DNA of 64,000 nucleotides, taken from contig BCHU01000006.1 in the NCBI GenBank assembly GCA_001599715.1, positions 912,765-976,764 on the forward strand, in the 5' to 3' direction. Shown here piece after piece: positions 22,748 to 31,332 of this stretch. This DNA comes from Phaeotremella fagi. Taxonomy: Eukaryota; Basidiomycota; Tremellomycetes; Tremellales; Phaeotremellaceae. The notes beneath the pieces are model-generated. The model was not told the origin of the DNA, did not search any database, and worked only from the letters and a program-made list of their open reading frames with translations. Numbering within the stretch: position 1 is the first letter of the stretch; the number at the start of each line of letters is the position of its first letter. The translations under genes were made by a program, and so were the position numbers.

Positions 22748-24418
22748 ATGACGGGAGGTAGAAGTGTTGTAAGTTGTCTATCTTGTATTTTCTTTTCAGA
22801 TGGATATGAAACCATCCTTTGTCATGGATTTGATCTATTTCTTTTTGTTCCCATTCACCTATATTACTTGTTCAAAGCTGACGATCATCTTCTTCTTTAG
22901 GCCCGTGTCTATCCTAATGTGAATGAGAAGTTGGGTAGAGCTTGGTGGGATTATGGTAAGTAATTCGAGTGTCATTGACGGTTGTCACCGAATTTGCTGA
23001 CTTGGATTAGATAACCTGGTAGTTCAATGGGGTGTACAAGACAATTACGAAATCGTACGCAAAGTTGGAAGAGGGAAATATTCAGAGGTAAGTTTGGGAC
23101 TATACCACTCGCAACCTATCGCAGTAGATAGCTCTTGAAAACATGATACTGACTTCAACCCTAGGTCTTTGAGTCCATTCATCTCCCAACAAATCAAAAA
23201 TGTATCGTCAAAGTTCTCAAACCAGTAAAGAAGAAGAAGATCAAGAGAGAGATAAAGATTTTACAAAATTTAGCTGGTGGTCCCAATGTTATTGGATTGC
23301 TAGATGTTGTCCGGGACAGTCAGGTAGGTCGTTGGAACCATAGTGTTTACTTGGCGTTAGGAGGATAGGTGAGACTGACCTCTTTTAGTCTAAAACACCC
23401 TCAATCGTATCAGAATATGTCAACGTAAGCTCACCTTCAGTTACACAAATGCGAGACTGTGCTAAATCCACTCACAGAACACCGAATTCAAAACCCTCTA
23501 TCCAAAATTCACCGACTTCGACGTCAGATTCTATATATTCGAACTCCTCAAAGCACTTGATTTCTGTCATTCAAAAGGAATCATGCATCGTGATGTTAAA
23601 CCTCACAACGTCATGATCGATCATGAAAAGAGACAACTTCGACTTATCGATTGGGGATTGGCAGAATTCTATCATCCAGGAACAGAATATAATGTTCGTG
23701 TCGCATCGAGATATTTCAAGGGTCCAGAGTTGTTGGTAGATTTCCAGGAATACGATTATAGTCTTGACATGTGGAGTTTGGGTTGTATGTTTGCCAGTAT
23801 GGTGAGTGCCTTGGTGTTCCGGTGTTTGATTCTTGAGACTGACGTTTTTTTGCTATCATAGATTTTCCGTAAAGAACCGTACGTCCATTCACAATACGAC
23901 ATGAAAATGTGGTTGGCTTCGGCTTACTGATTTTGACGCTAGATTCTTCCACGGACACGATAACGGAGATCAATTAGTAAAAATCACTAAAGTTCTTGGA
24001 ACCGATGAATTATTCTCATAGTTGGTTCAGCTTTCCTGATTATAGAAACGTTTGCTAACCCTTTGAATAGTCTTGAACGATATGAAATCGACCTGGACTC
24101 TCAGTTTGACGATATCCTCGGTAGATACCCACGGAAACCATGGTCGAGATTCATTACCTCTGGTAAATCTTCTCTAATCCTTAAAATGCTGGAATTTAAC
24201 TAACCGATCTATAGAAAATCAACGATACATCTCCAACGAGGCCATTGACTTTTTGGATAAGTTATTGAGATACGATCATCAAGAGCGTTTAACGGCCATG
24301 GAATCACAGGATCATCCTTACTTTAGTAAGCTTCTTTTTGTCCTGATCAGGAACATCAAAGCTGACCACCATTCTAGCACCAGTCAAAGAAGCGGCTAGC
24401 AAAGCTTCAAAGGCATGA
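22748..24418 (+). CDS. CKA1: Casein kinase II catalytic subunit alpha
   Basis: ATG 22748 with a 21-nt first exon (MTGGRSV) followed by GTAAGT. Spliced protein reads [20 protein letters not shown], the glycine-rich loop [11 protein letters not shown], the Lys-rich [15 protein letters not shown] type segment (here [14 protein letters not shown]), catalytic [14 protein letters not shown] instead of DFG (typical of CK2), [42 protein letters not shown] and [18 protein letters not shown]. It ends with [17 protein letters not shown] and TGA 24416-24418. One intron uses donor GTTGGT, and the splice gives [14 protein letters not shown]. Constitutive Ser/Thr kinase that works as a tetramer with beta subunits. 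Confidence 0.95.
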
Positions 24419-25135: not shown

Positions 25136-28100
25136 ATGGCCTACGCTTATCCAGCGACAGCGACTGTTGATCTCAATCCACATCAACAATCTGGTTCCGG
25201 GGGTAGTAGTACACCAGGTAATCTAGAGAGAAGTAGTTCAGGATTCACTTTTGATAATAAGAGGAAAATCTCTGATCCTATGTTTGACGTTTTGAAGGAG
25301 TTCAAGGTATGTTTTTGGTTTTTCATCAATCTGATTCGTTTGAATTTGAAGGACTGACTTTTGCAGTATAAAATCGATGAAGGTTAGTCACTGCTCATGA
25401 GATTTTTTTACTGTTTCTGATGTTGGATAGATGAACATTATATAACTTTCTTTCAAGAGCGGTAAGTCAAGCTCTACTATTTTAAAGCTGGATTTGGAGA
25501 CTGATGAATATCCATTTAGTATACGAGTCGAAGAGCAGTATGTAGATAATCTGAATAGATTGTATGATAGAGCTGTAGCGATGGATTCACTACATGATGA
25601 GTAAGGTTGACTTGATCATCTCTCTTCAAAGTGTTTAATTAAACGACTAAATAATAGCGTCCCACGTCGTGGACCTCGATCAACATCCCGAAGAGCTTGG
25701 CAAGAGGTCAGAGATTATACACAGAGAGAAGTAGAAGCTCGTCAAGCTATGATTGGAGCTCTTAAAGAAGACGTCGTTAATTCCTTGGTTAGCGTTAGAG
25801 TGGGTTTTGGAGGGGTTGATTTCGACTGGTTGAACCTTGCTGATTGATGATGAATTAGGATACTCAAAGTAGGATCAGACAACGTATTCGTGAAGATTTG
25901 AAACATTCTGCTGAGGTGAGTTTTGGTTTTTACCGTCTTGATCGAATGTATGGATACTCAACCCCTTCTTCAGAGATACGAGGAATATTCTGGGACTAGA
26001 TTACCTAAATTGAAAAGAAATTATTTCCAGAAGACTCAGATCGTTGAGGTAAGCTATGTTGTGTGCTAGTCGTCCCCTCAAGCTGACACCCTTTCCAGGA
26101 TATCAAACGTCAAGAACACGCTGTAGCTATGCAAGCGAAACTACTCTCAACATCTACGCCAACTTCCCCGTCCCAAGAAAACCCAGGTGGTGGTAACAGT
26201 TACCCACTATCTTCGCCTGGGACCAACGTCTCCCCTTTACCCAATCAACCAGGTCTCGCTGATACACCTCAATTCTCCCCTCCAACCCAAGCCCAATCCC
26301 AACAACCAGTCCAAACCCAACCTCAGCCCCAACCATCAATCTCATTCTCCTCTCCACCATCAAACAAAATTTCTTTGGTGACCGGTAGAAACAGAGCTGG
26401 TTCAGGTTCAGGTTCATACATCGACAGTAAATCTAAAGAGGTTTTGAACGATGTCGCTAGTCAGTACAAGAAAGGTTTGAACGCTTTCCGAAGTCGATTG
26501 GGGGGTGATAAGGATAAAACCAGTGACGAGGGGTTTTCTAACGCTGCTAGTGGGAATGAGAATGATATTATTGTTGGGGTTGGTGGATTGAATCGACGGG
26601 GGACTGGGGGTAGAGATAAATCTATGGGTTCGGCTATGAAAGGTGTTAGAGCTAAACGGGAAGCTGAGGATGCTGGTGAGATTACAACACTTTTCTTACC
26701 AGAGTATTGTTTCGGCTAAAAAGATTAATCACTTTTCAGATAAAGCTTATCGATACGGTGTCTTCCATCTCGAATCTCTAAGAATTCGTCGTGATAAATT
26801 GCAAGCCTCTGCAGTAACTGTACGTCGACGTCTCGTCTCCGACAAACAGTCTGTAACTGATCATTTGAAACAGAGTTTGGAACAATTCTATGAAGAATTG
26901 AATACAACTTTGAGAACCACTTTTGAAAGATATGTCGATGCGGTTCATGGGACTGCTGCTACCGTTGCTCAATTGACGGAGGTACCCAGAGAAGCTATCG
27001 AGAGTGTTAATCTTGAAAGGGATCGTGAGTCATTTCACAATTTATGCAAGTAAATATTGATCACGATCCCAGTCACAATGTTTAGAAGTAGATTACCTGC
27101 TTTGAATTCATCACAAACAGCTCCAGTGTTATATGAGAATTTCTACGTAGGTCTCATCCATATCTTCAAGTCTAATTAGTACTAAAATATTGGTGATAGG
27201 TCGGACATTGTCGATCTTTGATCTTTGGAGTTAGTTTGACGGATTATGATTTCGCAAGAGGTGAAGGTGGAGATCATGATCGACCGCCTGCTATTGTCGA
27301 AAAATGTATCGCGGCTATTGATCAACGAGGTGTGTTGGATGTTTTTCTGTCTTCGAAAGGTTTGATTTCTGATTTTTGTGATGCAGGGTTGGATGCTGAA
27401 GGGATTTATCGAATTAGTGGAAGACACGCTGGCGTTCAGGAGGTACGTTATTTACTCGATTCAACCAATTGTAATTCGTTGTTGACTTCTCAACAGACCG
27501 TTCAGAAGATTGAAGTCGACGAGGAGAAATTCTCTTTCGATGAGAAAGATGATGTCTTTAGTATCTCCAACATATTGAAACAATGTGAGTGATCTGGATG
27601 CAGCTTGTATCACAATATCTAACTTTGAAAAGATCTACGTCAATTACCGGATCCAGTTTTCCCATTACCTCATGCGGAGAGAGTCAAACATACAGAGAAC
27701 AGGGGTACGTCTAGTATCTCTCGAGAAAAGACAGAGGATGGTGAATTGATGTTTCTGTGACAGAGACCCATATCCATTCGAATTTCTCAGCTCTACGTGC
27801 AAGATTACGACGACTGGCTCCAATCCATCAAACTACTTTCCAAGCTATCATCGAACATCTGGGTCGAGTTCATGCAAACTCCAGCGTTAATAAAATGGAT
27901 GCTAAGGTATGTTCGGTCTATTGCGGTTATGGATGATCAGCTGATTAGGGTTGATAGAATCTTGCTGTTGTTTTTAGTATGTGTTTCCTTGCATTTGAGA
28001 CGAGGACGAATGTTGATCGTTAGTAGATAACGCCCTTTTCGGTCCTGATCAATTGCCCTCTGATGGAAATGTGTTGATGATGCATTTGGAAAAGGTCTGC

Positions 28101-29499
28101 CATTGTTGGCTTCGTATACAGGGCTCAGCTGACAGAGATTAGGATACTGTGTTAGAAGATTTGATCAATTTCTCTGATTTAGTCAGTTTACGATCCTAGG
28201 ACGTTTGTAGGAACAAGACTGACATTAAATCATAGTTGTTCGGTAACGATTCACCACCACTGGCACCTAACATCTTACCGCCTGGATCGGCACTATCAAG
28301 ATCAGGGGTGATGACTTATCATCCTGTTGATGATGGTGCCCAACCTGGTAGTTCACGTACGAAGATCAAAATTCTTGATCCCCAACCTGAGAGTTCGGGT
28401 TCAATATCTAAAGAATCATCTGGTGGTGTTACACCTGTCATTTCTTCAAATGTTGGTGAACCAGGTTCCGATTCTGTTACGGAGGGATTCACGCCTAACG
28501 ATAAACTGTCGTTACTCTTTGATGAGAGTTTGATACCTGCTTCTTTCGTTGACGGTGTTGGAGAAGATTATCATGTGAGTGAATTCCGCACGACACAATT
28601 GACTGACATCAACCCAGGTTCGTCCCTTGTCATCAACCGATTTCCTTCGTTCCCAATTCGGTCTCCTCTCAACCCTAACAACAGCTCCAGCTTTAGCACC
28701 CTCAATCTATCTCAACTTATTCAACAACCTAAAGAAAGAGAACTACTACATCCTAGTTATCATCAACAAGAAAACCGATCAACTCATAGCTTCAGGTACA
28801 CTGTTCATCGAGAAGAAGTTCATCCATTCAGCAGGCCTGGCGGGACATATTGAAGATATCGTTGTTGGGGCTGAAACTCAGGGGAAAGGATTTGGTGCGT
28901 TGTTGGTTAAAGGTTTGAGGGAGTTGGGCAGGGAGTTGGGCTGTTATAAAGTTATTTTGGATTGTCGGGAGGAAAAGATCGGTTCGTGTTTTTGCTTTTT
29001 TATTGGAGATTGGGCTGGTTCACTGATATTGATTTGGTTCAGGATTTTATGAAAAATGCGGGTAGGTTGATGATATCTTCCTTTTCTTTTGAGTGGTTAT
29101 TGACAATCCTTGCTTAGGTTTACATTACGAGGTCGTCAAATGGTAAACCAGCTCTTTTGTTACTCAAGAATAACCAAACTAACAATTTAGGCTTATTACG
29201 TCCCAGAACCTCCAATATTCACCAAGGGAATGACACCGCCAACCCTTCCCCCACGTAAACAATCCACATCGACCAGTCCGAAGACTGGAGATACAGAAAT
29301 TGTGGAGGACAGCTCCAGATCGAAAGAGATGGAAGAGGAGATCGAACCTTCTGATCCGGGATCACCAAAGACTTTCGCGAGCGCTTCGTCAGGTAGTGGA
29401 TTCACTTATTCTTATCCTGTCGAGGGGGGGATTTCAGGTGGGAGTGGGACGCCTTTACCGACGGTGAAGAATGTTGATTATGTGGATTTGAACGATTAG
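25136..29499 (+). CDS. F-BAR / RhoGAP protein fused in frame to glucosamine-6-phosphate N-acetyltransferase
   Basis: Hand splicing gives about 23 exons and one frame of some 1058 residues. Residues about 45-180 and 385-480 form an FCH/F-BAR helical module (SDPMFDVLKEFKYKIDEDEH; IRQRIREDLKHSAERYEEYS), split by a Pro/Gln/Ser-rich insert. Residues about 510-715 are a RhoGAP domain: FGVSLTDYDF, LDAEGIYRISGRH with the arginine finger, NILKQYLRQLPDPVFPLP, KMDAKNLAVVFNNALFG. After a linker, residues about 800-960 are a complete GNA1: LLFDESLIPASFVDGVG, YHVRPLSSTDFL, FIEKKFIHSAGLAGHIEDIV, acetyl-CoA loop TQGKGFGALLV, GCYKVILDCRE, GFYEKCGFTLRG. A tail with TPPTLPPRKQ, an SH3-ligand-type motif, ends at 29499. 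Intron 28182-28235 decides the fusion: retained, it stops the frame at 28197-28199. An in-frame ATG at 28311 could start a separate GNA1. Confidence 0.8.
28182..28235 (+). promoter_or_regulatory. Intron that decides RhoGAP-only versus RhoGAP-GNA1 product
   Basis: Donor GTCAGT (28182) and acceptor CATAG (28235) with a CTGACAT branch site about 20 bases before the acceptor. Removal keeps frame (NFSDL|LFGND). Retention gives six more codons boundary to a TAG at 28197-28199, truncating the protein just after the RhoGAP domain. The donor is weaker than the usual GTRAGT. Confidence 0.5.

Positions 29500-30447: not shown

Positions 30448-31332
<885 letters not shown>

Follow-up and report, generated by a model that had tools for sequence, protein, structure and literature searches.

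A glucosamine-6-phosphate N-acetyltransferase joined in frame to an F-BAR RhoGAP protein in Phaeotremella fagi and related Tremellomycetes

Introduction

Rga7, an F-BAR RhoGAP protein of fission yeast, is described in passages of PMC12574955 as binding the membrane at cell tips and the septum and recruiting glucan synthases, and RGD1 is named there as its homologue. According to sections of PMC7324522, glucosamine-6-phosphate N-acetyltransferase (GNA1) of Aspergillus is an obligate homodimer, and Saccharomyces cerevisiae cannot live without the enzyme. In Cryptococcus neoformans, deletion of CNAG_05695 ('Gnat1') is viable, and the portions of PMC5595294 at hand conclude that glucosamine-induced filamentation is unlikely to be due to hexosamine metabolism. 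Here we describe a gene at positions 25136-29499 of a 64,000-nucleotide stretch of the Phaeotremella fagi genome (G000:C6:912765-976764, hereafter the window; genome of 22.6 Mb in 24 contigs), in which an F-BAR RhoGAP protein and a GNA1 are joined in a single frame. The original prediction, made from the letters of this stretch, knew of no described fusion of such a kind, and we likewise found none in the literature retrieved, including passages on GNA1, GNAT and F-BAR RhoGAP proteins.

Results

Alignment to relatives gave a fusion gene of 24 exons and 1041 residues, with introns that are all GT-AG and 43-64 nt long; the continuous frame first proposed stood, while its length of about 1058 residues did not. 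A splice with 23 exons and 1056 residues was rejected on this alignment, three of its junctions being wrong, and the corrections comprised an intron 5 donor at 25800, an added 54-nt in-frame intron at 26820-26873 and an intron 17 acceptor at 28026. Database searches for homologues used the 1056-residue version; the corrected protein was then searched again for domains. The protein consists of an F-BAR (FCH) region, RhoGAP, a disordered linker, a complete GNA1 and a disordered tail, and carries every motif read from the sequence at the outset (GIYRISG, HIEDIV, TQGKGFGALLV, GCYKVILDC, FYEKCGF and TLPPRK). The features of the gene, in window coordinates, are as follows.

25136..29499, plus strand: F-BAR/RhoGAP/GNA1 fusion gene, 24 exons, 1041 residues, splice checked against relatives
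25136..27024, plus strand: F-BAR region, exons 1-10, two helical parts flanking a disordered insert (Pfam; AlphaFold model of an orthologue)
27287..28049, plus strand: RhoGAP domain, residues 515-662 (Pfam PF00620, E 1e-36)
27410..27412, plus strand: codon of the presumed arginine finger, R537 in EGIYRISG (motif search)
28236..28574, plus strand: junction exon 20, a single open exon with the RhoGAP end, linker and GNA1 N-terminal motif
28236..28370, plus strand: conserved linker block LPPGSALSRSG..PGSSRTKIKI (alignment; majority consensus of 32 proteins)
28488..29199, plus strand: complete GNA1 module, FTPN/LLFDESLIP to MAYY (sequence comparison, Pfam)
28575..28617, plus strand: intron before (V)RPL, phase 0, also in the free GNA1 gene (gene-structure comparison)
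28852..28857, plus strand: Glu-Asp of HIEDI (E882, D883), the Glu aligning with AfGna1 Glu-129
28975..28977, plus strand: K923, Asn in 117 of 118 free GNA1s (alignment)
28982..29042, plus strand: intron before FYEKC, phase 1, also in the free GNA1 gene (gene-structure comparison)
29062..29117, plus strand: intron in CG/F, phase 2, also in the free GNA1 gene (gene-structure comparison)
29200..29499, plus strand: C-terminal tail with LPPRK at 29245-29259, ending YVDLND, without a peroxisomal-type tripeptide and disordered in the orthologue model

Pfam returned the three domains expected from a hidden Markov model search, namely FCH (PF00611, residues 53-129, E 6e-8, 33.3 bits against a cut-off of 27.8), RhoGAP as listed above and Acetyltransf_1 (residues 837-932, E 3e-12); the NCBIfam scan gave weak GNAT matches only, and by sequence and fold the last module is a GNA1, matching 2vez at E 5e-31. 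The AlphaFold model of the orthologue P0014 has helices at 42-203 and 348-421 with disorder in between. We take R537, in the RhoGAP domain, to be the arginine finger. With its N-terminal FCH and a RhoGAP holding this predicted arginine finger, the protein is classed as an Rgd1/Rga7-type F-BAR RhoGAP. A search of the genome for FCH misses the window gene because the domain is split by introns; that search does not count F-BAR genes. FCH and RhoGAP matches also occur at a second site on the same contig (C6:1219591-1221708), where the GNA1 search listed none.

Sequence comparison confirmed that 25136-29499 holds one open frame across the three modules, the true in-frame fusion originally proposed, which is conserved in relatives. 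Junction exon 20 is free of stops in the coding frame, whereas the other frames hold 3 and 14; since an open run of 113 codons has p ~0.002 on base composition alone, the better evidence is the conservation seen in relatives. A merger of two neighbouring genes by gene prediction, or separate proteins made via an internal start, would agree with the in-frame ATG at 28311 (the only one in this exon), the AATAAA-like word at 28224 and the annotation in Vanrija humicola of a 227-residue fused-type GNA1 alone. We nevertheless consider this very improbable: the junction exon is open and its linker block conserved, the annotations of many species give a single protein, the window's Met is absent from aligned relatives, the start Met of the free copies is gone, and no Met at all stands between RhoGAP and LLFD in 12 of the 34 fused proteins.

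The linker starts LPPGxALSRSG, then QPGSSRTKIKI, in the consensus, and because this start is conserved and, in the alignment, partly recognisable in unfused Naganishia, it looks like the old RhoGAP tail. After it comes FTPDxxLDLLFDP or a variant, resembling the N-termini of free GNA1s, six of which among the 29 Tremellomycete ones shown start MTPD and several of which from other basidiomycetes begin MPSFTPD; the capture thus took in a whole GNA1 frame, with loss of its start Met.

RhoGAP and GNA1 are joined in 33 database proteins among the matches listed, 27 from named Tremellomycetes and six metagenomic. The genera are Kwoniella, Cryptococcus, Naematelia, Kockovaella and Tremella, with two Tremellales species, and Cryptotrichosporon, Vanrija and Cutaneotrichosporon; C. 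neoformans P0162 (33 member sequences) is included. Papiliotrema, Dioszegia and Apiotrichum have a free GNA1 and no fused protein in this comparison, which scored only candidates sharing most words and is uninformative on genera not listed. RhoGAP without GNAT was found in proteins of Naganishia, Suillus, Tulasnella, Lactifluus, Rhizopogon and Microbotryum, the F-BAR RhoGAP occurring alone in Naganishia and agarics, and in the metagenomic P0169, P0171 and P0172, the last two of which stop at the RhoGAP end and may be partial.

In the RhoGAP tree the fused proteins, together with the C. gattii group, split from six unfused proteins (support 100), and the GNA1 tree splits fused domains from free ones (support 99); as to the branching point of the fused GNA1, grouping with the Tremellomycete free copies was not rejected (approximately unbiased test, p 0.39). 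On these comparisons the fusion is old, and the best explanation is a single joining of GNA1 in an ancestor shared by Tremellales and Trichosporonales (orders assigned as we understand the taxonomy).

The annotated orthologues P0164-P0167 of C. gattii and C. tetragattii end at NLDPIF, exactly at the GNA1 start, and in the tree the C. gattii group joins C. neoformans with support 100; such an ending would reflect either subsequent loss of the module or a limit of the annotation. It would also suit a captured GNA1 that is a neutral passenger, without function and slowly being lost. Across 21 matched pairs from many genera (one of them C. neoformans with C. deneoformans), however, the fused domain averages 66.7% identity between species and the free enzyme 69.9%, the most diverged fused domains being that of the window (60.2%) and that of Kockovaella (59.0%), and with conservation so nearly equal we regard a passenger as improbable.

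An intact free GNA1 lies at C6:335375-336173, with six exons and 178 residues, on the same contig about 600 kb from the fusion and 45% identical to the fused domain. The observation that no second GNA1 is visible in the window may hold, yet the hint that the fusion could be the cell's only GNA1 is not supported, given this separate gene. The original prediction had named, as fatal to itself, a free GNA1 elsewhere paired with an inactivated fused copy; the free gene exists, whereas the fused copy is conserved, without obvious inactivating change. Three of the five introns of the free gene have counterparts in the fused copy at the same position and phase (chance p ~2e-6), so that the fused GNA1 arose by DNA duplication and not as a retrocopy. 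The fused and free genes are 37 to 59 tags apart in eight species with comparable locus tags and on contigs of equal size in six more; they are on different contigs in two Cutaneotrichosporon species, K. heveanensis and Uapishka_1 (the last two being fragmented assemblies). The nearness of the two genes, or their place on one contig, hints at duplication within one chromosome.

Taking as near-invariant the 36 internal positions with 97% conservation or more among 118 free GNA1s, the fused GNA1 of the window keeps 35, including the HIED Glu and Asp, a Cys and a Tyr; the Glu corresponds to the AfGna1 Glu-129 treated in part of PMC7324522. The lost position is the Asn replaced by Lys at 923, which is Lys, Arg or Met in all 34 fused proteins; several other departures among the 34 are caused by broken gene models near FYEKCGF in P0016 and P0173. 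At eight positions fused and free copies have hardly any residues in common, and the substrate or regulation of the fused GNA1 has possibly changed. The Asn was not equated with the general GNAT asparagine covered in passages of PMC5225019, the spacing to Tyr being different (7 residues before it there, 4 for position 923).

These residues bear on the main rival explanation, a regulatory or sensor role of the GNA1 part, in which acetyl-CoA or glucosamine 6-phosphate binding, or dimerisation, would control the F-BAR/RhoGAP part, catalysis being weak or absent. The replacement of the Asn in all 34 and the presence of other fused-specific positions would agree with such a module, as would the separate free GNA1 and the viability of C. 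neoformans after deletion of the probable orthologue (reported in the part of PMC5595294 cited above). The 35 retained positions, the HIED Glu and Asp, the Cys and the Tyr among them, argue the other way, and C. elegans GNA1, whose structure was solved with a coenzyme A adduct, has Leu where the fused proteins lost the Asn, which is therefore not universal among GNA1s. We rate such a regulatory module as rather unlikely.

The 37th conserved column of the free GNA1s is a C-terminal Leu, missing from 34/34 fused proteins. The free GNA1 of P. fagi itself ends SKL, and an ending of the form [SAC][KRH][LM], which we take to be a type-1 peroxisomal signal, is present in 26 of 28 complete Tremellomycete free GNA1s, the remaining two ending PRL. 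(The 28 are the 32 copies, the P. fagi one plus P0042-P0072, minus one fragment and three metagenomic copies of 278-298 residues, one of which holds two GNAT domains.) Among the other listed free GNA1s, 13 of 88 fit this pattern and 46 of 88 end PRL (26/28 against 13/88: Fisher's p 4e-14, relatedness ignored); the background is 27 of 21423 internal positions, and such an ending occurs in 0/34 fused proteins. Since the endings fit the signal, free GNA1 seems to be sent to peroxisomes, and this is clearest in the group that has the fusion. P0046 holds a tandem pair of GNAT domains, and P0053, P0056 and P0073 are similar in length.

CNAG_05695 is placed, in the section of PMC6687208 consulted, in the Gene Ontology (GO) class regulation of cellular process, a class suited to a RhoGAP but not to a plain GNA1, and the C. 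gattii orthologues without GNAT are still named glucosamine 6-phosphate N-acetyltransferase; by this GO class and naming, CNAG_05695 is probably the orthologue of the fusion, and a free GNA1 should then remain in the gnat1 mutant.

In the window, kinase frames lie upstream of the fusion at 23466-24400 (Pkinase match; CK2-alpha-like by eye), and a ubiquitin-conjugating enzyme gene lies downstream at 30450-31330 (UQ_con match on one exon).

Discussion

The open frame, its conservation, the single tree group, the GNA1 motifs, the free GNA1 and the C-terminal contrast are observed; the function that we infer is that of an F-BAR RhoGAP carrying a duplicated GNA1 as a wall-site enzyme, with the free copy partly peroxisomal, a reading whose chances we put at about half. 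A duplicated complete GNA1 would have been joined to the C-terminal tail of an Rgd1/Rga7-type F-BAR RhoGAP, whose F-BAR dimer would carry a GNA1 dimer to the plasma membrane at the bud, tip or septum. There it would acetylate glucosamine 6-phosphate toward UDP-N-acetylglucosamine and chitin/chitosan, while the RhoGAP part would tune wall-controlling Rho GTPases at the same site; the free GNA1 would work at least partly in peroxisomes, and enough of it would reach substrate for cells to survive when the fused copy is missing. By analogy with Rga7, tethering of precursor synthesis to the polarity site is plausible. A stricter division, with the GNA1 step split by place, the Tremellomycete free enzyme peroxisomal and the fusion acting as the GNA1 on the cytosolic side of the plasma membrane, supplying wall synthesis and perhaps reporting on it where Rho activity is set, is a tentative and somewhat doubtful extension.

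Several points weigh against the wall-site enzyme. N-acetylglucosamine 6-phosphate is diffusible, so local supply brings no obvious gain, and the annotated C. gattii orthologues, ending where GNA1 starts, suggest that the module can be dispensable. The replaced Asn and the eight divergent positions mean that activity or substrate may have changed, and in its active-site strand the fused GNA1 of Kockovaella imperatae P0163 has LGC for LDC. Nor does the peroxisomal ending go strictly with the fusion, some Mucoromycota free copies also fitting it, and the link between CNAG_05695 and the fusion is indirect, coming from naming and from a GO class.

The protein unites a core sugar-metabolism enzyme and a Rho/membrane regulator in one chain, retained in a group of fungi to which C. 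neoformans belongs, and makes it possible to ask directly whether the wall-building site is where precursor synthesis is located. With two GNA1 genes in these fungi, both arguments about GNA1 as a drug target and the conclusion drawn in print from the gnat1 deletion on glucosamine-induced filamentation must reckon with a second gene.

Among known systems, the metagenomic GNA1-phosphoacetylglucosamine mutase proteins (P0029-P0032 and P0034-P0041; ~620-640 residues, P0029 confirmed by Pfam) likewise hold GNA1 within a fusion, but they join two successive pathway enzymes and no signalling protein. A GNA1 also occurs in a predicted Wallemia ichthyophaga protein with subtilase and Mo25-like domains (P0033), probably a merged gene model. 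CNAG_05695 'Gnat1' is the probable orthologue of the fusion, but is named just as a glucosamine 6-phosphate N-acetyltransferase in the available text of PMC5595294. The free paralogue has a peroxisomal-type C-terminus, whereas the fused GNA1 has none. Like GNA1/GNPNAT1, the fusion holds the whole domain, including the N-terminal LFD motif and the catalytic motifs; unlike the solved enzymes, which are small and free, its GNA1 is tethered and without the near-invariant Asn. Rgd1 of S. cerevisiae and Rga7 of Schizosaccharomyces pombe have F-BAR followed by RhoGAP, as does the fusion protein, and the Rgd1 RhoGAP structure 5my3 is among its sequence and fold matches; no acetyltransferase is described for either in the passages of PMC12574955, whereas the fusion protein has GNA1.
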